Origin: an uncultured Bacteroidales bacterium
Lineage (GTDB): Bacteria; Bacteroidota; Bacteroidia; Bacteroidales; Muribaculaceae
Direction of reading: 5' to 3'
Assembly (NCBI GenBank): GCA_902760865.1
Contig: CACWID010000002.1
Span: 172,101 to 236,100, forward strand
DNA length: 64,000 nt
Shown: piece after piece, positions 22,586 through 32,417 of the stretch
Position numbering within the stretch: position 1 is the stretch's first letter
Layout of the letters: the number at the start of each line of letters is the position of its first letter
Made by a program: the position numbers and the translations under genes
The notes under the pieces: model-generated
Told to the model about the DNA's origin: nothing
The model's input: only the letters and a program-made list of their open reading frames with translations
Database searches by the model: none

Positions 22586-23146
22586 ATGACAACTATGCAC
22601 GATACCAGCAAGCAATATGATGAGGTGATAGCCCAGTGCCGCGAACTGTTCATCAACAAGATGAAGGACTACGGCCCCTCGTGGCGCATCCTCAGGCCTC
22701 GGTCGGTTACCGACCAGATTTTCATCAAGGCAAAGCGCATCCGCACCCTGGAACTCAACGGCGAGACCAAGGTGGGCGAAGGCATCTGGCCCGAATTCAT
22801 CGGCATCATCAATTATGGCATCATCGGGCTGATACAGCTGCAACTGGGCTACAGCGACACGGTGGACATCACCGCCGAGCGTGCCCTGGAACTGTACGAC
22901 GAACTCATCGGGGCAACCAAGGCCTTGATGATGGCCAAGAACACCGACTATGGCGAGGCTTGGCGCGACATGCGTATCTCGAGCTACACCGACCTGATAC
23001 TGACCAAGATACAGCGCACCAAGGAGATTGAGAACCACGGCGGCGCAACGCTGGTCAGCGAGGGCATCGACGCCAACTATCAGGACATGATCAACTACAG
23101 CGTATTTGCCCTGATCAAGCACAACGAAGGCTCAACTGAAAACTGA
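22586..23146 (+). CDS. DUF1599 (nucleotide modification-associated domain 1) protein
   Basis: A 186-residue cytosolic protein with two tandem copies of one motif: INKMKDYGPSWRILRPRSVTDQIFIKAKRI near the N-terminus and MAKNTDYGEAWRDMRISSYTDLILTKIQR in the second half. This duplicated 'DYG-x-x-W-R' helix pair is the signature of DUF1599, linked by family annotation to nucleotide modification. Its activity is unproven. It heads a plus-strand operon with DoxX-like, kinase-AAA and YbjN-like genes; DUF1599 next to the DoxX-like gene is a recurring Bacteroidales arrangement. The last codons (STEN) fall in an AACTGACA-type micro-repeat. Confidence 0.85.
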   Translation: MTTMHDTSKQYDEVIAQCRELFINKMKDYGPSWRILRPRSVTDQIFIKAKRIRTLELNGETKVGEGIWPEFIGIINYGIIGLIQLQLGYSDTVDITAERALELYDELIGATKALMMAKNTDYGEAWRDMRISSYTDLILTKIQRTKEIENHGGATLVSEGIDANYQDMINYSVFALIKHNEGSTEN

Positions 23147-23175
23147 CAACCAAAAACTGACAACTGACAACTGAA
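23133..23175. repeat. AACTGACAACTGA micro-repeat
   Basis: AACTGAAAACTGACAACC words repeat through the end of the DUF1599 gene and the gap before the DoxX-like gene. The same unit recurs at 26374-26408 in the same operon. Confidence 0.8.
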
Positions 23176-24495
23176 ATGACCATCAAAGCCATCATCAATG
23201 CAGTGAAGGGAGAGAAGTGGTGCCAGGTCCTCACGGTGCTCATGAGGCTCACCGTGGGCGGCGTCTTCGTCTTCTCGGGCTTCACCAAGGGGGTTGACCC
23301 GTGGGGTGGCAGCTACAAGGTCACCGACTACCTCAGCGCCATGGGGATGGAGCAATGGACAGGCACGGCCCTGTTCATCGCCGTTGCCCTTGCCGCGTTT
23401 GAGTTCATGCTGGGCATTGCCCTCGTCGTGGGGGCCTACCGCCGCAGCGCGCCCTGGATGGCACTGCTCATGCTGCTGGTGATGACACCGCTGACGCTGT
23501 GGATTGCCGTTACCGGGGCAGTTCCCGACTGCGGCTGCTTCGGCGACGCGCTTCACCTGAGCGGCTGGGCGACCTTCGGCAAGAACGTGCTCCTGCTGTT
23601 GGGTACGGTCTATCTGCTGGCTTTCAACAGGTCGGTACGGGGCATCTACGGCCCCGCTGTGCAGTGGATGGTGATGGCAGCCTCGTTTGCCCTGGTGATG
23701 GCACTGGCCTACTACGGCTACTTCAAGCAGCCGCTCATCGATTACCGCCCCTACCCCGTCGGTACCCGTCTGGTGGCCACCGACGCGGGAGACGCCGATG
23801 AGGAGGGCGAGGATGACTTCATCTTCATCTACAGCAAGGACGGCGTGAGCCGCGAGTTCACCATCGACAGCCTGCCCGACGAGGAGGACGGCTGGCAGTA
23901 TGAGACACGCTACCATGCCCGTCGCCCGCATGGCAAGGTCGTCGTGCAAAACGCCGAGGACAGCAACGGCATCGCCATCCTCGATGATGAGGGCAATGAT
24001 GTCACTGTCGATGTGCTGGGCGGCAGCCGCCGCACCGTGCTGCTGCTCTTCCCCGACCTGCCTCGAGTGGGTGTCGTAAACTCCTACACCCTCAACGAGC
24101 TCACTGATGCCGCCCTGGTGACCCAGGCCGACGTTATCGGGTTGACACCGGCCTCGCCCGGAGAGGTCGAGCAGTGGCAGGACATTTCGATGGCCAGCTA
24201 CCCCATCTACAATATGGATGACAGCGAGCTCAAGATGATTGCACGCGGCAACCCTGCCGTGGTCTATCTCGAGGACGGCACCATCAAGTGGAAACGCACA
24301 CTGGCCTCGCTCGAGGACGCCGAGCAGCCCTTCGAACTGGCGCAAATGGGAGAGGACTATGACGCCGACGCCATCATAACGAGGCTGATGGTCACCTACC
24401 TGCTTGTGCTGCTCGCCGTGCTCATCATCAACCGCTCGCATCTGGTCGTGAAGAGCCTCTGGCGCCGCAAACCGCAACAAGAAACCAAGGACTAA
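23176..24495 (+). CDS. DoxX/MauE-like membrane protein (BT_3926 type)
   Basis: 439 residues. The N-terminal ~170 residues form four or five membrane helices of the DoxX/MauE fold (LRLTVGGVFVFSGFTKGVDPWG, FEFMLGIALVVGAY) with the conserved VPDCGCFGDA, whose Cys pair suggests a thiol-redox role as in MauE-like proteins. The rest is a soluble acidic region on the periplasmic side (EDDFIFIYSKDGVSREFTIDSLPDEEDGW) with a thioredoxin-like flavour (RTVLLLFPDL), and a final membrane helix (LMVTYLLVLLAVLIINR). Its gene lies 29 nt after DUF1599 and 22 nt before the kinase-AAA gene. Confidence 0.82.
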   Translation: MTIKAIINAVKGEKWCQVLTVLMRLTVGGVFVFSGFTKGVDPWGGSYKVTDYLSAMGMEQWTGTALFIAVALAAFEFMLGIALVVGAYRRSAPWMALLMLLVMTPLTLWIAVTGAVPDCGCFGDALHLSGWATFGKNVLLLLGTVYLLAFNRSVRGIYGPAVQWMVMAASFALVMALAYYGYFKQPLIDYRPYPVGTRLVATDAGDADEEGEDDFIFIYSKDGVSREFTIDSLPDEEDGWQYETRYHARRPHGKVVVQNAEDSNGIAILDDEGNDVTVDVLGGSRRTVLLLFPDLPRVGVVNSYTLNELTDAALVTQADVIGLTPASPGEVEQWQDISMASYPIYNMDDSELKMIARGNPAVVYLEDGTIKWKRTLASLEDAEQPFELAQMGEDYDADAIITRLMVTYLLVLLAVLIINRSHLVVKSLWRRKPQQETKD

Positions 24496-24517
24496 AAACA
24501 AAAGACTGAATACATAT

Positions 24518-26374
24518 ATGATTCTCAAACAAGGACAAATCGTTGACAACAGGTGGCATGTGGTTTATCTCATCAAGGAGAACCCCTATGCCGAGAGTTA
24601 CCGCGTCGAGGACGAGAGCGGCAACCCCTACTTCATGAAGATTTACCGCCTCAAGAACACTCCCGACAAACTCATCAACAACGGGAGCGTCAATGAGATC
24701 GAGTGGTCGATGAGCATCAAGCACAAGAACATCATCAGCTTGATCGACTTCGGCACCCACAAGGACGAGGAGGGCGACTGCCCCTTCCTGGTGGCCACCT
24801 ACTTCAGCGGCGAGCTGCTCAGCGAGATGCTGCAGCGCGAGACCAAGCTTCAGCCCGACGTCGCCACCAAGATTTTCTTGGAGATGCTGCAGGGTCTGCA
24901 CTACATGCACACGTCGTGCGGCTGTCTGCACAACGACATCACCCCGAGCAATATCATGCTCAGCAACAAGACCGGCGGCACCGCCGAGCTCATCGACCTG
25001 GGCCACGTGTCGGCCGGTTTTATGGGCACGCCGCCGTTCGACACCGCCGACCTGGACCCGCGCTATGCCAGCGGCCAGTCGTTCATCGGCAAGTATGACG
25101 AGCGCAACGACATCTTTGCCGCTGCAGCCGTGTTCTACACCATGCTCACCGGCCATGCGCCCTGGAACGTGGAATTCACGCCCGACATGACCCGCAAGGA
25201 CAAAATCAAACTCGTGAAGAAGGCCCGCAGCGAGCAAAGCGAACTCGACCTCAGCGACATCGAGGATGACAAGCTGTGCGACATCCTGCGCAAGGGACTT
25301 GCACTGGGCTACAATGATCGCTACGGCAGCGTCAGGGAGATGCTCAAGGACCTCGTCGAGGGTGACGAGAGTGAGACGGCCCAGGAAGTGCGCACCAAGG
25401 TGCTCGACGAGGAGTTTGAGGACGTCCTGAGCCACTTCCAGTCCGGAATCGGCGACAGCAACGATAATGATAATGATTACTCTGGCCGCGACTCTCGCTC
25501 CAGGCAAGAGTCCGAAACCAGCGCCGATGTGGAGGTGAAACGCGGTGGCGGCAACGGCTTTGCCGACATTGCAGGCATGGACGACCTGAAGGAGATGCTC
25601 CGCAAGCGCGTCATCCTCATCCTCAAGGACAAAGAGCTGGCCGAAAAATACAAGCTCACGCCGCCCAACGGCATGTTGCTCTACGGTCCTCCGGGATGCG
25701 GCAAGAGCTTCTTTGCCGAGAAGTTTGCCGAGGAGACCGGCTTCAACTTCATCCTGGTCAAGGCCAGTGACCTGGGCTCCATCTACATCCACGGCTCTCA
25801 GGGCAAAATCGCCGACCTGTTCAAGAAGGCCGAGGAGAACGCTCCGTCGGTGCTGTGCTTCGATGAGTTTGACGCCTTCGTCCCGAGCCGTTCGGGCGAC
25901 CTGGGCAGCAACCAGGCCGGTGAGGTGAACGAGTTCCTCACCCAGCTGAACAACTGTTCCAAGCGAGGCATCTTTGTCATCGCCACAAGCAACCGCCCCG
26001 ACAAGGTGGATCCCGCTGTGCTGCGCACGGGCCGCATCGACAAGCAGGTCTATGTGCCTATGCCCGACGAGACGGCCCGCAAACTCATGTTCGAGCTCTA
26101 CCTCAAGGACCGTCCCTGTGAAGAAATCGACTGCGACGAGCTGGCACGCAAGGCCGACGGCTATGTCGCCAGCGACATCGCTTATGTCGTCAACGAGGCC
26201 GCTACCATCGCCGCCTTCAACCGCGAGAACATCTCCCAGGAGCTGCTCTGCAAGACCATCGAGGGCATCAAGCCGTCAATCAACAAGGACCTGCTGAAGG
26301 AATACGAGGAAATGCGCGACAAGATGGAGGGCATCAGCCGCACCAACTCCCTGCCTCGCGTCGGATTCCAATAA
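24518..26374 (+). CDS. Protein kinase-like domain fused to AAA+ ATPase
   Basis: 618 residues, no membrane segment. Residues ~1-290 resemble a Ser/Thr kinase: Lys41 (YFMKIYR), alpha-C Glu near 60, catalytic HNDITPSN (Asp140, Asn145) and DLG (Asp160). There is no glycine-rich P-loop, HRD is HND and DFG is DLG, so activity is uncertain. An acidic linker (~310-350, DNDNDYSGRDSRSRQES) leads to an FtsH/Cdc48-like AAA+ module: Walker A GPPGCGKS (390-397), Walker B CFDEFD (Asp449, Glu450), sensor-1 Asn492 and arginine fingers Arg503/Arg506. The kinase may sense or phosphorylate a client remodelled by the ATPase; this is inference. Followed by a YbjN/CesT-like gene. Confidence 0.85.
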   Translation: MILKQGQIVDNRWHVVYLIKENPYAESYRVEDESGNPYFMKIYRLKNTPDKLINNGSVNEIEWSMSIKHKNIISLIDFGTHKDEEGDCPFLVATYFSGELLSEMLQRETKLQPDVATKIFLEMLQGLHYMHTSCGCLHNDITPSNIMLSNKTGGTAELIDLGHVSAGFMGTPPFDTADLDPRYASGQSFIGKYDERNDIFAAAAVFYTMLTGHAPWNVEFTPDMTRKDKIKLVKKARSEQSELDLSDIEDDKLCDILRKGLALGYNDRYGSVREMLKDLVEGDESETAQEVRTKVLDEEFEDVLSHFQSGIGDSNDNDNDYSGRDSRSRQESETSADVEVKRGGGNGFADIAGMDDLKEMLRKRVILILKDKELAEKYKLTPPNGMLLYGPPGCGKSFFAEKFAEETGFNFILVKASDLGSIYIHGSQGKIADLFKKAEENAPSVLCFDEFDAFVPSRSGDLGSNQAGEVNEFLTQLNNCSKRGIFVIATSNRPDKVDPAVLRTGRIDKQVYVPMPDETARKLMFELYLKDRPCEEIDCDELARKADGYVASDIAYVVNEAATIAAFNRENISQELLCKTIEGIKPSINKDLLKEYEEMRDKMEGISRTNSLPRVGFQ

Positions 26375-26408
26375 AACTGACAACTGAAAACTGACAACTG
26401 AAAACTAA
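26374..26408. repeat. AACTGACAACTGAAA micro-repeat
   Basis: Direct repeats of CTGACAACTGAAAA fill the gap between the kinase-AAA and YbjN-like genes. Confidence 0.8.
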
Positions 26409-26414
26409 ATAATT

Positions 26415-26831
26415 ATGGACTTAAACAAACTGATGATCAACTACCTTGCCGAGGAAGGTTTCCGTCCCCACGAGACGGAATTCGGCATCGCCTTTAAGAG
26501 CGAAGGCTTCAATTTCCTGTTCTTCAAGGACGAGGACGACGAGCAGTATTTCAGACTGATGATGCCCGCCATCTTTGAGGTCACTGAGGACAACGAGGAC
26601 ACGATCCTGCGTGCGATGAATGATGTGAACAGCAACATCAAGGTCGTGAAACTCTACACCATGGACATGGAGGATGAGGACGGCAAGAAGGAAGTCAGCG
26701 TCTGGGTGGCTTTCGAAATCCTGGCCGACACCACGCCCGAGGTCGGTGACATCCTGCCCCGCGCGCTCTCCCTGCTCAAGGGTGCCCGCATCGCCTTCCT
26801 CGCCAAACTTGAGGAATTCGCCGACAAATAA
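26415..26831 (+). CDS. Small acidic YbjN/CesT-chaperone-like protein
   Basis: A 138-residue cytosolic acidic protein. The pattern LNKLMINYLAEEGFRPHETEFGIAFKSEGFNFLFFKDEDDEQYFRLMMP, followed by a helix with VNSNIKVVKLY and a strand pair (VSVWVAFEIL), recalls the YbjN/type III secretion chaperone fold: helix, three strands, helix, strands, helix. Such proteins usually bind partner proteins. It lies 40 nt after the kinase-AAA fusion, so it is a plausible partner or adaptor of it. No enzymatic motif is seen. Confidence 0.65.
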   Translation: MDLNKLMINYLAEEGFRPHETEFGIAFKSEGFNFLFFKDEDDEQYFRLMMPAIFEVTEDNEDTILRAMNDVNSNIKVVKLYTMDMEDEDGKKEVSVWVAFEILADTTPEVGDILPRALSLLKGARIAFLAKLEEFADK

Positions 26832-27005: not shown

Positions 27006-30000
27006 TTACTCAGCAGTCAGTATCTCATGGATGACGGCGTTGACGTCGGCAATGTTCACCTCGCCATCGCCATTCACATCAGCTATCATATCCGGGGACG
27101 TTGCATAGCATTGCTGAATCGTCGCGTTGATGTCGGCAACGGTGACCTCGCCATCAAGGTTCACATCACCGGTAACGTGGTCAGTCTGTGCGCCGGCCAC
27201 GTTCTTGAACTGGCTCCAGAAGCTCGCATTGCGATAGTCTTCAACCGAAGCGCCGGGCACGGTGAGCGCAGCCTTCTTGTACACAATCAGGGGGAAACAA
27301 TCCTTTGCCGCCAGCACAGGAGGCGTCACAGCCTTAGAGGTGATGTCGATAATCGACATACTCTGGGTAAAGGTCTTTGTAGCAATCGACTCGATACTGC
27401 TTCCCAGCGACACTCCAGTGAGCGACATACAGTAGCTGAAGGCGCCCTTGCCAATGGACTTCACGCCATCACCGACCGAGACTCTGGCAAGCTGCCCACA
27501 ATTGTAGAACGCACGATCGCCGATGGCGGTGACCTGGTCGCCGACGGTGACATCAGTCAGCCCTTCACATCCGCTGAAGGCAAAATCTCTGACGGCGGTG
27601 ACCGATTTGGGGATGACAAGGCTGGTCACCTCTTCATCGGCAACAAACAAGTGGCTGCCCGAACACAACGGATTGGCCGCCTCGTTACCGAATGCAATGG
27701 CGCACCAATCCTCAAGGCTGGGGGTATTGACGCGGGACACACCGTTACAGTAAATGAATGCCGAAGGGGCGATGGTGGTCACCGATGCGGGAATCGTCAC
27801 GCTCTCCAACGAGGTGCAGCCGGCAAAGGCATTCCTGCAGATGGACTTGAGGTCCTCGGGCAGCACCAGGTCCTTGACCAGCTCGCCGTCAATCGCCAAC
27901 TGGCGGGCGTAAACCAAGGGGTTAGCCGACTCACTCTTGAAGTCGATGGCACACCAGGCGCCGAGGTCGCTGATGTTGACTTGCGACAGGCCTTTGCACC
28001 CCAAGAAGGCGTCCTCTTCGATGACGCTCAAGGTGGGAGGCATCGTGAGTGATGCCAGGCTGTAGCAATTGTAGAAAGCATACGGGGCGATGCTCTCCAG
28101 ACTCTGGCCCAGGTCAACGTGCTGCAGCCCGCTACACCAGCCGAACGCGGTATCGCCAACCCTGGTCTGCCTGGGAGACAATATCAGGTCGGTCATCGAT
28201 GTGCAGGCATAGAATGCCGCTTCGCCAAGATAGACGTCGCCACCCTTGAACTCCACATTCTCGATTCCCTCGCAGAAGGCAAATGCCGCATACTCAATCG
28301 TATCGAGGGTTGCAGGCAGCGTGAGCGACTTCAGGGCGCTGCAGCCATAGAATGCACTGGCATCAATCACCTTCATGCCATCTCCGATGGTGATATCGTT
28401 GATACCGCTGCAGAAGGCGAAAGCACACAGCCCGATGCGCTCCAGCGAGTTGGGAAGTTCCACCCGGGTCAACGAAGAACACTCATAGAAGGCATAATCA
28501 CCGATCGAGGTCACTCCCTCGCCGACGGACAAGCTCGTGATGTGGCTGCAAAGGGGGAAGGCATAGTTGCTGATACGGCCGGCACGACCTGGGATGACGA
28601 GTTGAGTCACTTCCTCGCCTTGACAGTAGATCTTGGCATCGTTGAGCAACGGCGAGGAGTTATAGTCTTCAAATTCAATGCTGGCAAAGGAGGCCATGTC
28701 CTCGATCTCTACCCTGTCCATGCCGTCGCAATGATAGAAGGCCATGCTGCCGATGCGTTCTATCTCCTTGTTGATGGCAATCTTGTTGAGGCTCCTGCAA
28801 TTCCAGAAGGCCTGGGCTCCAATCGACCTTACTGTGCCGGGGATTTCCACATCGGTCAGGTTTTGACAGTTCCTGAAGGCATTATTGCCGATAGCGGTGA
28901 CCGTACAGGTCTCGCCGTCATGGCTCACAGTGGAGGGAATGGTCACGGCACCCTGATAGGAATTGAAGAGGTTGTTCCTCGTAACGACAGTCGCCTCTGA
29001 GCCGTTTTTCTTGTAATAGACGCCATCCTCCTCAAAGTCATAGAGAACAGCGGCCACGCCATCCTCGCGTGGATATACTTTATGGACCATATCTTGGGCA
29101 TAATTGAACGTGTACTCTCCTGAGCCCAGCATGTCCAGAATGAAATAGCCGTCCGAGCTTCCACCCCAGCCCCAATTCACATGGTACCTGCCGTCGTCAT
29201 AGCCGTCGAGCACAAAAGCATGGCCCGAATCCATGCTACTGCCTGAATACAGTACAGGACGTCCGGCGCTCAAGTCCTCGAGCAGCATCTCATTCCACTG
29301 CTCATAGCTGTAATCGTCCCTTCTTAATTCGACGGCCTCTTCATTATAGCCAAACGCCAAGAAGGCCGCGCACTGGTCATTCACCATCGCTCCGCTCGCC
29401 TCGGGTGTATAGTCCATGAAACAAGCCTGGCCGCAATAGCGCATCAGGGTGGCTACGGCATCGGCCTGCTCGGGGGTATAGTTGAAATTAGGATAGTACC
29501 CGGTGTACTCGTCAATCATGTTGTCCCAGTCAAGGCGGACGCCGGGTAGCGCCGGCACTTCAATATTCAGAGAAGGGGTGTTGAACGACGACAAGGCAGG
29601 TAATTCTGCTGGGTACTTCCAGTAGTACATCACCTGTGCCATAGCCGTGGCGACGCAGCCGGTGAGGCATCTTGCATCCTGATAGATCGGGCACTGGTTA
29701 TAGTATGGTGCCCTCTGGTTCCACTTGCAGGTGAGCAACGGCTCGATGGAGGTCGAGGAGCGGGCCGGGGCTCGGCGGGGTTTGCGTATGCCCTCATCGG
29801 CTTGAGACTGCAGGAACTCGATCTGCCGCTTGTACTGCTCCAGCAACCATTTCACGTTGCAGGGCAGCTCGGCGACATTCATCTTGCCGTCACCATAGGC
29901 AAGGACCTGGGTCTCGACACGGTCGTCGCCGGCCACGATGATAAAGGCGTTGCCGTCGCTCGTGTTAAACACATAGTAGTCCACCGCACTTGATTGGGAT

Positions 30001-30188
30001 GTAGCTGGCTCGGCATGGGCAAGTTCCAGAACGGTCTGTCTGCCGGCACGCATCTGACTGGACATGCGGGACTGCAGGAAATTCTCGGCCACGGCCTTGG
30101 CGGCGGTGGCATCTACCTCGGCTGCCGACACATCCATAAAGAGCAGTGCAAGGACAGCCAGTAATAATAATGAGTTAATCGGCTTCAT
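27006..30188 (-). CDS. C10 cysteine protease (streptopain family) with leucine-rich repeats and dockerin
   Basis: About 1060 residues from the ATG at 30188, giving signal MKPINSLLLLAVLALLFMDVSAA; the ATG at 30224 adds 12 unlikely residues. Order: propeptide (~25-130, YYVFNTSDGNAFIIVAGDD), C10 peptidase with catalytic Cys in LTGCVATAMAQVMYYW and His in SGHAFVLDGYDDGRYHVNWGWGG; BspA-type leucine-rich repeats from ~400 to ~960 (SIGDYAFYECSSLTRVELP, with a repeat of about 23 residues); and a C-terminal dockerin-like pair (GDVNLDGEVTVADIN, ADVNGDGEVNIADVN) carrying Ca2+-binding loops. It is expected to be an exported, possibly surface-held protease; the LRRs may choose the target. Confidence 0.9.
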   Translation of the reverse strand: MKPINSLLLLAVLALLFMDVSAAEVDATAAKAVAENFLQSRMSSQMRAGRQTVLELAHAEPATSQSSAVDYYVFNTSDGNAFIIVAGDDRVETQVLAYGDGKMNVAELPCNVKWLLEQYKRQIEFLQSQADEGIRKPRRAPARSSTSIEPLLTCKWNQRAPYYNQCPIYQDARCLTGCVATAMAQVMYYWKYPAELPALSSFNTPSLNIEVPALPGVRLDWDNMIDEYTGYYPNFNYTPEQADAVATLMRYCGQACFMDYTPEASGAMVNDQCAAFLAFGYNEEAVELRRDDYSYEQWNEMLLEDLSAGRPVLYSGSSMDSGHAFVLDGYDDGRYHVNWGWGGSSDGYFILDMLGSGEYTFNYAQDMVHKVYPREDGVAAVLYDFEEDGVYYKKNGSEATVVTRNNLFNSYQGAVTIPSTVSHDGETCTVTAIGNNAFRNCQNLTDVEIPGTVRSIGAQAFWNCRSLNKIAINKEIERIGSMAFYHCDGMDRVEIEDMASFASIEFEDYNSSPLLNDAKIYCQGEEVTQLVIPGRAGRISNYAFPLCSHITSLSVGEGVTSIGDYAFYECSSLTRVELPNSLERIGLCAFAFCSGINDITIGDGMKVIDASAFYGCSALKSLTLPATLDTIEYAAFAFCEGIENVEFKGGDVYLGEAAFYACTSMTDLILSPRQTRVGDTAFGWCSGLQHVDLGQSLESIAPYAFYNCYSLASLTMPPTLSVIEEDAFLGCKGLSQVNISDLGAWCAIDFKSESANPLVYARQLAIDGELVKDLVLPEDLKSICRNAFAGCTSLESVTIPASVTTIAPSAFIYCNGVSRVNTPSLEDWCAIAFGNEAANPLCSGSHLFVADEEVTSLVIPKSVTAVRDFAFSGCEGLTDVTVGDQVTAIGDRAFYNCGQLARVSVGDGVKSIGKGAFSYCMSLTGVSLGSSIESIATKTFTQSMSIIDITSKAVTPPVLAAKDCFPLIVYKKAALTVPGASVEDYRNASFWSQFKNVAGAQTDHVTGDVNLDGEVTVADINATIQQCYATSPDMIADVNGDGEVNIADVNAVIHEILTAE

Positions 30189-30255
30189 AATCATCCACAA
30201 TTTTAAATAATCAGGTTCAAACAATAATTAGGTATTCCCATCCATGGGGCTACCA

Positions 30256-30434: not shown

Positions 30435-32417
30435 TTATTTCTTCACAATCTGGATGGCGGCACCTCCACCGGGGGCGAGATGCAAGTGCAGCACCGATGT
30501 GCGGTCCACGTCCTTGCGGCTGATGATCATCGGATAGGGATTGGTGCGGTAATCGGCATCGGGGCCGTCCTCATAGATGATGGCCATGTAGCTGCCGTCA
30601 CCGAGGAAATCGAGCCGCAGGTCCAGGTCACGGGCCGTGGCGTCGGTCACGCTGCCCACATACCAGTTGTCGGCACCGCGCTCCTGGCGCACATAGGTCA
30701 CATATTCACCCATGGCGGCATGGGGAACGAGGGTGCGCTCCCAGTCGGTGGGCACTTCCTCAATAAACTTGAAGGCGGGCTGGTGCTCGTAGTTCTCAAT
30801 CTGGTCGGCGGCCATGTGGCCCGGGCTGTAGAGGACCACGTATTCGGCCAACTGGTGGGCGAGCGTGTTCTGCGGACGCGTGCCGGGGACCGAGTCGTTG
30901 CGATACTCAAAGATGCCGGGAGTGAAATCCATCGGGCCGCCCAGGCCGCGGGTGAACGGCAGGATGCACTCGTGATAGGGGGGATTGCCGCCACGGCGGT
31001 CAAAGGCGTTGTACTCCTGGCCGCGCATGCTCTCAGTGGCGATGAGGTTGGGCCACGTGCGCTGGATGCCGCTAGGGATGGCGCCCTCGTGGTTGACAAT
31101 CATCAGGTGATAGCGGGCAGCGGTCTCGATGACCTTGCGGAAGTGCTGGATGCCCCACTGCGAGTGCTGCAGCTCGCCGTTATAGAAGTGGCTGTTCACA
31201 TAACCCGTCTTGACCGTGTTGATGCCCAGCGACTCGTAGAGGCGGTAAGCGTCCTCAAGCTGGTCCTCGTAGTTCTGGGCTGCGCCGCCGGTCTCGTTGT
31301 GGGCGATGATGCGCACACCGCGCTCGCGGGCATATTTGCACAGACCCTGCAGGTCATAGTCGGGATAAGCCTTGGTGAAGCTGAAGCCGTCGCCGTGCTT
31401 GGTCCAGTCGGTGTCCCAGCCGTAGTTCCAGCCCTCGACCAGCACGCCGCCCAGGCCATGCTTGGCAGCAAAATCGATGTAGCGCTTGGTGTTCTCGGTC
31501 GTGGCGCCGTGACGCTCACCCTGTGACCAGGTCCAGCGCTGTTTCTGCAACGCCCACCAGATGCCGACATACTTGGTCGGCTTAATCCATGAGGTGTCCT
31601 GGATTTTGCAAGGCTCGTTCAGGTTCAGAGGCATGCGCGAGAGCAGGATGTCGGCAGCCGTGCGGCCGATGATGATGGCACGCCACGGGCTCAGGCGGGT
31701 ATCTCCTACCCTCACCTTATCGCCATTCTTCCAGGGCACGAGGTCGGCCTTGAGCACGGTGCCCTCATGCGAGAAGTTCATGGTCGAGTAATCGGTCAGG
31801 TTGGCATCCATGATGGCCATGTAGAGTCCATCGTTCACCTCCAGGGCGACAGGACCCGACATATTCTTCTTTTGGCTCACGGGCTCACGGGTATAGATGC
31901 CCTCATAGTAAGGCGTCAGGGCGGGAATGGACCACGCCTGCGCATCATTAGGCAGGGCAAACTCGGTTGCCTCGTCCATAATCACAAAGTCCTGCAAGCC
32001 ACGCTGGCGCGGGAACTCGTAGCGGAATGCCACGCCGTCGTCAAAGGCGCGGAACACCACGCCCAGTTGACGTTTCTGGCCTCCCTTCTCCTGCAGGGTC
32101 ACCCGCATCTCGTTGTAGTGGTTGCGCACCTGGGCATCCTCGCCCCACGGCTGGCTCCACGTCTCGTCAAGGGTGCCACGGGTCACCTTACCCATCTTGA
32201 AGTTGTCCTTGAAATCGCCATCCTTGAGCACAAAGCCCAGTTTTGAACGATTGATAACAGCCTCAGTGCCACGCACCACGCTATACCACGCCTTGCCGCC
32301 GTCAACGCCGACGGTCACCGTCAGCTGCCCGTCAGGCGAACTCACCTTCACATCTTCGGCACTCGCTACAACGCTCAGCGCCAAGCACATAAACACAACA
32401 CTTAATAATTTCTTCAT
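30435..32417 (-). CDS. GH97 glycoside hydrolase (SusB-like alpha-glucosidase)
   Basis: A 660-residue periplasmic enzyme with signal peptide MKKLLSVVFMCLALSVVASA. The N-terminal beta-sandwich (VSSPDGQLTVTVGVDGGKAWYSV) and the TIM barrel of GH97 are evident (WWALQKQRWTWSQGERHGATTENTKRYIDFAAKHG, VEGWNYGWDTDW). The putative inverting carboxylates lie in IIAHNETGG, MIVNHEGAIPSG and IATESMRGQEYNAF, and the TVKTGYV strand has Gly where retaining GH97 enzymes have an Asp nucleophile. That favours the inverting alpha-glucosidase subgroup, to which SusB belongs, over alpha-galactosidase. The neighbouring amylase and SusR-like regulator support maltooligosaccharide hydrolysis. Confidence 0.88.
   Translation of the reverse strand: MKKLLSVVFMCLALSVVASAEDVKVSSPDGQLTVTVGVDGGKAWYSVVRGTEAVINRSKLGFVLKDGDFKDNFKMGKVTRGTLDETWSQPWGEDAQVRNHYNEMRVTLQEKGGQKRQLGVVFRAFDDGVAFRYEFPRQRGLQDFVIMDEATEFALPNDAQAWSIPALTPYYEGIYTREPVSQKKNMSGPVALEVNDGLYMAIMDANLTDYSTMNFSHEGTVLKADLVPWKNGDKVRVGDTRLSPWRAIIIGRTAADILLSRMPLNLNEPCKIQDTSWIKPTKYVGIWWALQKQRWTWSQGERHGATTENTKRYIDFAAKHGLGGVLVEGWNYGWDTDWTKHGDGFSFTKAYPDYDLQGLCKYARERGVRIIAHNETGGAAQNYEDQLEDAYRLYESLGINTVKTGYVNSHFYNGELQHSQWGIQHFRKVIETAARYHLMIVNHEGAIPSGIQRTWPNLIATESMRGQEYNAFDRRGGNPPYHECILPFTRGLGGPMDFTPGIFEYRNDSVPGTRPQNTLAHQLAEYVVLYSPGHMAADQIENYEHQPAFKFIEEVPTDWERTLVPHAAMGEYVTYVRQERGADNWYVGSVTDATARDLDLRLDFLGDGSYMAIIYEDGPDADYRTNPYPMIISRKDVDRTSVLHLHLAPGGGAAIQIVKK

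Follow-up and report, generated by a model that had tools for sequence, protein, structure and literature searches.

In a 64,000-nucleotide stretch of DNA from an uncultured Bacteroidales bacterium of the Muribaculaceae (contig CACWID010000002.1, positions 172,101 to 236,100; hereafter the window; host genome 3.35 Mb), a gene encoding a kinase-like domain fused to a classical AAA+ module is followed by a gene for a small protein resembling the YbjN/CesT-type chaperones (TY-chaperones). Among 61 stretches carrying this AAA family, the family is accompanied by a TY-chaperone gene in 36, by an Hsp70-like gene in 19, by both in none and by neither in six. The fusion and its chaperone gene hint at a protein-handling machine not yet described, in which one AAA+ module has, by gene context, two alternative chaperone partners. 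The fusion and partner genes are real, conserved and both under purifying selection, with ratios of nonsynonymous to synonymous substitution rates (dN/dS), worked out by hand against three relatives, of 0.13-0.25 for the fusion and 0.08-0.12 for the partner. Their features, in window positions, are:

24518..26374, + strand: fusion gene, 618 aa; kinase-like domain, acidic linker, classical AAA+ module and C-terminal tail
24542..25363, + strand: kinase-like domain, about residues 9-282 (from PF00069, an alignment of 13 divergent members and a residue table)
25364..25546, + strand: acidic linker of variable length, about residues 283-343 (from the alignment)
25547..26317, + strand: AAA+ module with lid, about residues 344-600 (from PF00004 and AAA_lid_3)
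26360..26368, + strand: C-terminal VGF tail, residues 615-617 ([VILF]G[FY] kept across the family)
26415..26831, + strand: TY-chaperone-like (YbjN/CesT-type) partner, 138 aa, starting 40 bp past the fusion

Gene context of the AAA family

The 61 stretches were taken one per genome copy (below, L numbers denote stretches and G numbers genomes). The TY-chaperone gene lies downstream in 35 of its 36 stretches and upstream in one, L062, where the order is swapped; the two genes overlap in L182, and an all-ORF (open reading frame) search located the partner gene in L063 and L066. The Hsp70-like gene lies upstream of the fusion in its 19 stretches, as a fragment at the contig end in L051. The stretches with neither partner are L046, which is cut by a contig end, L067, L069, L073, L179 and L180; because the stretches measure 3.6 to 18 kb, a partner farther off can be missed. 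Five AAA-only relatives (L071, L072, L160, L161 and L197) stand outside the 61; an all-ORF search found no TY-chaperone gene in them, and in L071 an Hsp70 match of no more than 19.5 bits.

The window's genus gives the same picture at closer range. The fusion is present in 27 of its 37 genomes, in two of them (G027 and G030) in the Hsp70 type. Outside the Hsp70 type there are 25 fusion genomes, of which 24 have a strong partner gene (at least 170 bits); the one without it is G022, where the fusion is cut by a contig end. No such gene is present in the 12 remaining genomes (10 without fusion, 2 of Hsp70 type), which yielded two weak hits of 24 and 34 bits. The full fusion is found in 15 of the 393 genomes sampled from the order, the window's included. 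Nine of the 11 order genomes with an Hsp70-like gene are among these 15 (Fisher test, 5e-13, ignoring relatedness). The TY-chaperone occurs in 13 order genomes (E 1e-8 or better), beside the fusion in 4, beside a kinase-less AAA protein in 3 and elsewhere in 6; its occurrence beside the AAA family in 7 of 13 corresponds to a Fisher value of 2e-7, which likewise ignores relatedness and counts 15 fusion and 3 kinase-less genomes, but not the AAA-only matches in G398 and G212. The scan for the fusion scored at most three candidates per genome, and second copies can be missed. One genome, G423, has both chaperone genes, on different contigs, and no fusion. In the phylum sample a match was found in 6 of 395 genomes besides the window's, with five full-length fusions outside the order, all of the Hsp70 type.

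Three genomes (G247, G393 and G329, one genus group) encode AAA proteins of this family without a kinase domain, each followed by two TY-chaperone genes. Since these kinase-less proteins keep their TY-chaperone genes, the chaperone pairing belongs to the AAA part. An earlier sequence-only reading of this DNA had proposed a motor with a dedicated small partner, and gene context supports this well, both by the distribution within the genus (24/25 against 0/12) and by the kinase-less loci. The expectation that the YbjN-like gene always follows the fusion fails over the order: an Hsp70-like gene stands in its place in 19 of 61 stretches and the partner comes first in one, and we rejected an obligate YbjN-like partner for the order as a whole because the Hsp70-like genes alternate with it.

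Some loci depart from these arrangements. The genome G171 carries two fusion copies on one contig (L178 and L179), one with a TY-chaperone and the other with degenerate kinase motifs and no partner found. At L073:4132-10378 a divergent fusion is preceded by genes for a multi-AAA protein and a low-molecular-weight tyrosine phosphatase and followed by one for a calcineurin-like phosphatase.

The AAA+ module

Both domains reside in one protein, as previously described from the sequence: PF00069 matches residues 31-275 (E 2e-26; 93.3 bits, cut-off 31.7) and PF00004 residues 386-514 (E 2e-34; 119.1 bits, cut-off 21.2), together with AAA_lid_3 (27.3 bits, cut-off 27.2). The AAA+ module had also been called intact, which we confirm, as all the classical AAA motifs are there: Walker A (390-397) and Walker B (D449/E450), sensor 1 (N492), the arginine fingers (R503/R506) and the AAA lid, with a pore-loop aromatic placed by eye at Y423. 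The Walker A lysine, D449, E450, N492, R503 and R506 are invariant in the alignment of 13 divergent members. In a residue table of 73 rows (best-stretch scores of at least 240 bits, identical C-terminal 250 residues merged), which takes in seven archaeal Cdc48-like rows and the contig-end-truncated L033, K396, E450 and N492 are kept in all 73 and D449 in 72; R506 is replaced by Cys in four rows (L066, L070, L155 and L156), and L033 stops short of the fingers.

The fusion falls below the full-length models of related subfamilies, reaching 187.9 bits against 802.65 for Cdc48 (TIGR01243), with a single AAA stretch, and 155.2 against 600 for FtsH (TIGR01241), the protein stopping shortly past the lid. 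In a tree of AAA sequences, from which 14 near-copies or cut rows and three of the seven Cdc48 rows were left out, the family separates from the four archaeal Cdc48 outgroup rows with a support of 100/100. A phage origin of the fusion was considered and rejected, none of 50,697 phage records covering 80% of the fusion at one site. Separately, a fusion-negative genome in the window's genus encodes a 1198-aa FtsH-like ORF (L054:5569-9165) that reads as three tandem AAA modules, possibly through an assembly error.

The small partner

The assignment of the small protein as YbjN/CesT-like, made in the sequence-only reading, has a weaker basis than stated there, namely its predicted fold and a homologue, and not its own score, which is sub-threshold: 15.5 bits for YbjN against a cut-off of 22 (E 0.022), with no TY-Chap1 match up to E 0.5 in a Pfam scan. 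The aligned L062 homologue, 34% identical, passes both models (TY-Chap1, 37.2 bits against 27; YbjN, 36.9 against 22). An AlphaFold model of the partner, made from six sequences, has a mean pLDDT (predicted local distance difference test score) of 90.5 and the order helix, three strands, helix, two strands, helix; that of CesT is alpha-3beta-alpha-2beta-alpha. The predicted fold and the L062 homologue point to a YbjN/CesT-type peptide-binding chaperone. In TY-chaperones two helices are described as flanking a sheet of five strands (PMC9503650), and AmyR/YbjN proteins are described as having a fold like that of the class I chaperones of type III secretion systems (PMC5398634). TY-chaperone-like genes are also seen without the AAA family, beside WG-repeat, Sel1-repeat or trypsin-like proteins (L211:5866-7976, L210:3762-8428).

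The kinase-like domain

The kinase-like domain had been noted for its altered motifs, and these are indeed present: HND at residues 138-140, DLG at 160-162 and, where a glycine-rich loop would be expected, IKENPYAESYRV, which contains no glycines. What the alterations do not amount to is a loss of catalytic residues, since K41, E60, D140, N145 and D160 are all there. The acidic linker that joins the domain to the AAA+ module is as described, and the alignment shows its length to vary; a common short motif in it, seen by eye in two members, was dismissed as a chaperone-binding site because the 13-member alignment does not conserve it.

The two types differ in how they treat the domain. D140 is kept in all 32 rows of the TY-chaperone type that show the domain, and all five catalytic residues in 30 of them; of the 19 Hsp70-type rows, 3 retain D140 and 16 have it replaced or lost (Glu in 8), and 2 retain all five. 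These counts, which leave out L033, are of sequences and not of independent events. Phosphotransfer is thus unlikely as a function common to both types, the catalytic Asp being lost in 16 of the 19 Hsp70-type relatives. Taken with the kinase-less proteins, this loss makes family-wide activity unlikely and the kinase-like domain dispensable for the pairing of the AAA part with its partner.

The Hsp70-type operon and its ancestry

In the Hsp70 type the usual gene order starts with N500, an unknown protein of about 390-690 aa, and CC300, a coiled-coil protein of about 290-345 aa in which a membrane segment was judged by eye. The Hsp70-like protein, of about 830-860 aa, comes next, then the fusion and lastly a TerB-like protein. 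N500 is found in 18 of the 19 stretches, CC300 in 17 and the TerB-like gene in 14. The stretches that supplied the models match by construction, namely L047-L050 (4 of the 19) for N500 and CC300, and L051, L064, L065 and L068 for TerB, L064 being the same gene as in L049. Among the incomplete sets, L051, L177, L201 and L202 lie at contig ends and L047, L048 and L175 do not, and L202 has another gene order. The TerB-like protein scores above the Pfam cut-off in L051 and below it in L065 and L068, and gives no match up to E 0.01 in L049. The operon recurs in L198, L172, L173, L174, L176, L181, L064 and others, including a Daejeonella genome (L068), and is thinly spread over the sampled Bacteroidota.

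The Hsp70-like protein of L049 matches PF00012 with 226 bits over the ATPase part only, its C-terminal part being unrecognised by Pfam, and six aligned Hsp70-like proteins keep what we take to be the Hsp70 ATPase motifs. The L198 protein is well below the DnaK model TIGR02350 (233.6 bits against 822.55), with residues 8-384 covered. A J-domain in N500, suggested by eye from its NPYR.LG N-terminus, was rejected, as no DnaJ match was obtained up to E 0.1 in L068, L172 and L173.

The AAA tree places the Hsp70-type rows near its base, with the TY-chaperone rows nested among them; there are at least two switches and some weak inner branches, and the Hsp70 type occurs within the window's own genus (G027 and G030). 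This topology suggests that the TY-chaperone type arose from an ancestral Hsp70 type.

The C-terminal tail

The two types also share a C-terminal tail. The motif [VILF]G[FY] is present within the last nine residues of 35 of 36 TY-chaperone-type fusions, 17 of 19 Hsp70-type fusions and 5 of 10 other members. For archaeal Cdc48-like rows the corresponding figure is 0 of 7, for control AAA ORFs 5 of 70 and for background genes 11 of 476. Such a tail may dock a partner. ClpX and ClpA are described as docking on ClpP through IGF loops (PMC9035409), which makes ClpP a speculative candidate. A ClpP-family gene (L062:9825-10436) lies directly downstream of the swapped TY-chaperone/fusion pair, the only ClpP-like gene that one query found in the 61 stretches. 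The fusion of L062 is the sole TY-chaperone-type member without the tail, and docking on ClpP is disfavoured because the very locus with a ClpP-family gene next door lacks it. The window's genome has one PF00574 match, on another contig. That the Cdc48-like ring would be the unfoldase of a protease, its tail docking the hydrophobic sites of ClpP, an exchangeable Hsp70 or TY-chaperone delivering clients and the (pseudo)kinase exerting control, is in our view very doubtful; if true, ClpP would have in this ring a partner from beyond the Clp/HSP100 family.

Neighbouring genes

The fusion and partner are preceded by two further genes on the same strand:

23176..24495, + strand: BT_3928-family MauE/DoxX membrane protein; a neighbour judged to be outside the system
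22586..23146, + strand: DUF1599 protein (PF07659); a neighbour judged to be outside the system

ORF calling confirmed all four same-strand ORFs (22586-23146, 23176-24495, 24518-26374 and 26415-26831), and a PF07659 match bears out DUF1599 in the first; the second belongs to the BT_3928 family (344.5 bits, cut-off 250). The proposal that the four genes form one functional set was not confirmed. Of 41 genomes of the genus, 36 carry a BT_3928-family gene, among them the fusion-negative G004, G005, G010, G014, G015 and G028. Beyond the window's close group the genus has 18 BT_3928 loci, of which we read 12: a DUF1599 gene adjoins BT_3928 in all 12, and among the called genes of the flanks of about 1.5 kb none of the 12 has a gene of the fusion kind. 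At L232, L233, L235 and L238 the next gene encodes a protein starting MRKNIVAGNWKMN, presumably triosephosphate isomerase. As the BT_3928 and DUF1599 genes occur together away from the fusion, we rejected them as parts of the system and take them as neighbours. Since 17 of 23 close fusions sit behind BT_3928, joint transcription is possible there.

On the other side, a gene convergent with the fusion-partner pair (27006-30224) encodes a C10 peptidase with a Spi inhibitor domain, BspA-type leucine-rich repeats and a dockerin-like end; a glycoside hydrolase family 97 gene lies at 30435-32417.

Discussion

Bacterial AAA+ rings are usually seen in a few fixed partnerships, such as ClpXP, ClpB-DnaK, FtsH and Lon. 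A search of open-literature titles and abstracts, with subscription papers outside its scope, gave among the matches listed no description of a kinase-AAA fusion with YbjN-like or Hsp70-like partners. The reading we favour, to which we give an even chance of being right, is that an exchangeable chaperone brings proteins to the AAA+ ring for remodelling, that the kinase-like domain at the front serves for regulation or docking, and that the tail docks a partner. The AAA+ part, judging from its intact motifs, would form an ATP-driven ring that pulls on or remodels clients. The neighbouring peptide-binding chaperone, with which the gene pairing is observed, would capture clients and hand them over to the ring; this delivery chaperone would be the TY-chaperone in the window's type and the Hsp70-like protein in the Hsp70 type. 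In other classical AAA proteins the N-terminal position is taken by an adaptor- or substrate-binding domain, and the kinase-like domain could likewise serve there for regulation or docking, perhaps still phosphorylating in the window's type and probably not in most Hsp70-type members. The conserved tail would dock a partner common to both types.

Several points weigh against this reading. Both partners are missing from six of the 61 stretches; a gap separates the Hsp70-like gene from the fusion in L049 (1727 bp), L050 (819 bp) and L048 (304 bp), and in L045 the TY-chaperone lies 6.2 kb from the fusion. Six of the 13 positive order genomes have TY-chaperone-like genes away from the AAA family, and 2 of 11 with an Hsp70-like gene have no fusion; both Fisher tests ignore relatedness, and the order sample holds few positives. 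A profile search of PDB sequences with the partner returned chance-like matches only. The direction from Hsp70 to TY-chaperone is not firm because several inner branches are weak, and that the two chaperones do the same job we infer from their exclusivity.

In line with the signalling control proposed in the sequence-only reading, the kinase domain could instead drive the machine, phosphorylating the ring, the small partner or the clients and so switching remodelling on or off. The retention of all five catalytic residues in 30 of 32 TY-chaperone-type members, with D140 in all 32, and a dN/dS of 0.18-0.32 for the kinase part (against three relatives), indicating purifying selection, speak for this; the missing glycine loop, the loss of the catalytic Asp in 16 of 19 Hsp70-type members and the three AAA plus TY-chaperone loci without a kinase domain speak against it, and we consider it unlikely, although the window's type alone may have such a role. 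The small protein might also be an inhibitor or stabiliser of the fusion, in the manner of a class I secretion-chaperone cap, rather than a client-delivery chaperone. The genes of class IA secretion chaperones are described as adjoining that of the partnered effector, and YbjN proteins as thought to work through protein-protein contact (PMC5398634), but the replacement by Hsp70-like genes fits delivery better, and we judge a cap decidedly improbable. That the adjacency reflects inherited gene order alone, with the genes working apart, is hardly credible: most pairs in the genus probably derive from one ancestor, but the pairing recurs in several genera, also where the gene order is swapped, the genes overlap or the AAA protein has no kinase domain, and a strong partner gene is missing from the genus genomes that have no fusion.

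A role in anti-phage defence or another conflict, with the AAA/chaperone pair as the sensor, seems quite improbable. It would account for the patchy spread (full fusion in 15 of 393 order genomes, a match in 6 of 395 phylum genomes besides the window's), and PMC9503650 names, along with TY-Chap families, the displacement of chaperones by functional equivalents among the marks of conflict systems. The kinase and AAA parts match the PADLOC models PD-T4-6 and IetA, an MmeI gene lies about 5 kb from the AAA-only Acidobacteria relative L072, and the protein after L067 has a sub-threshold NACHT match (22.6 bits against 26.7). However, the curated full-length models for IetAS/MADS are far from reached (NF042959, IetA-type, 91.8 bits against 510; NF047741, 80 against 460), and PADLOC gave no match at E 0.001 for the Hsp70-like, TerB-like and unknown members of L198 and no more than weak ones (about 20 bits) for the coiled-coil member. 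No nuclease or toxin was seen in the conserved set, most other neighbours being without annotation, and 27 of the 37 genomes of the window's genus carry the fusion, 17 of them beside the same BT_3928 neighbour.

If the ring does remodel clients brought by an exchangeable chaperone, the family raises the question of whether a single ring can receive the same service from an Hsp70 and from a small YbjN-type chaperone. A second question comes from the kinase-like domain, whose catalytic residues are retained in one type and mostly missing from the other: what purpose does a kinase fold have in an AAA+ machine after phosphorylation is lost?

Comparison with known systems

The small partner is, like the YbjN, TY-Chap1 and class I type III secretion chaperones (AmyR, DR1245 and CesT), small, acidic, predicted to have a five-strand, three-helix fold and encoded beside its putative partner; it is unlike them in being paired with an AAA+ motor, and itself falls below the Pfam cut-offs. 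Kaur et al. 2020 (PMC7159879) described conflict systems that use AAA+ or Hsp70 chaperones; these likewise combine chaperone modules with NTPases and include inactive kinase domains. As described there they are centred on MoxR-vWA or GTPase proteins, unlike the fusion, and the terms YbjN and CesT are absent from that paper's text.

With the Cdc48/p97-type classical AAA proteins, and also PAN and the AAA module of FtsH, the fusion has in common the AAA module, lid and arginine fingers, and its best PDB sequence matches are VCP-like ATPases. In contrast to Cdc48/p97, it has one AAA module instead of two and a kinase-like domain in front, and a Pfam scan gave no match to the Cdc48 N-domain or to a protease domain. 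The DnaK-ClpB (Hsp70-Hsp104) system is a bichaperone of an Hsp70 and an AAA+ ring. The window's type differs from it in having no Hsp70-like gene, but for the Hsp70 type, in which an Hsp70 is encoded beside an AAA+ ring, it is the nearest working analogy, with a classical-AAA ring in place of ClpB, a divergent Hsp70 and additional TerB-like and coiled-coil proteins.

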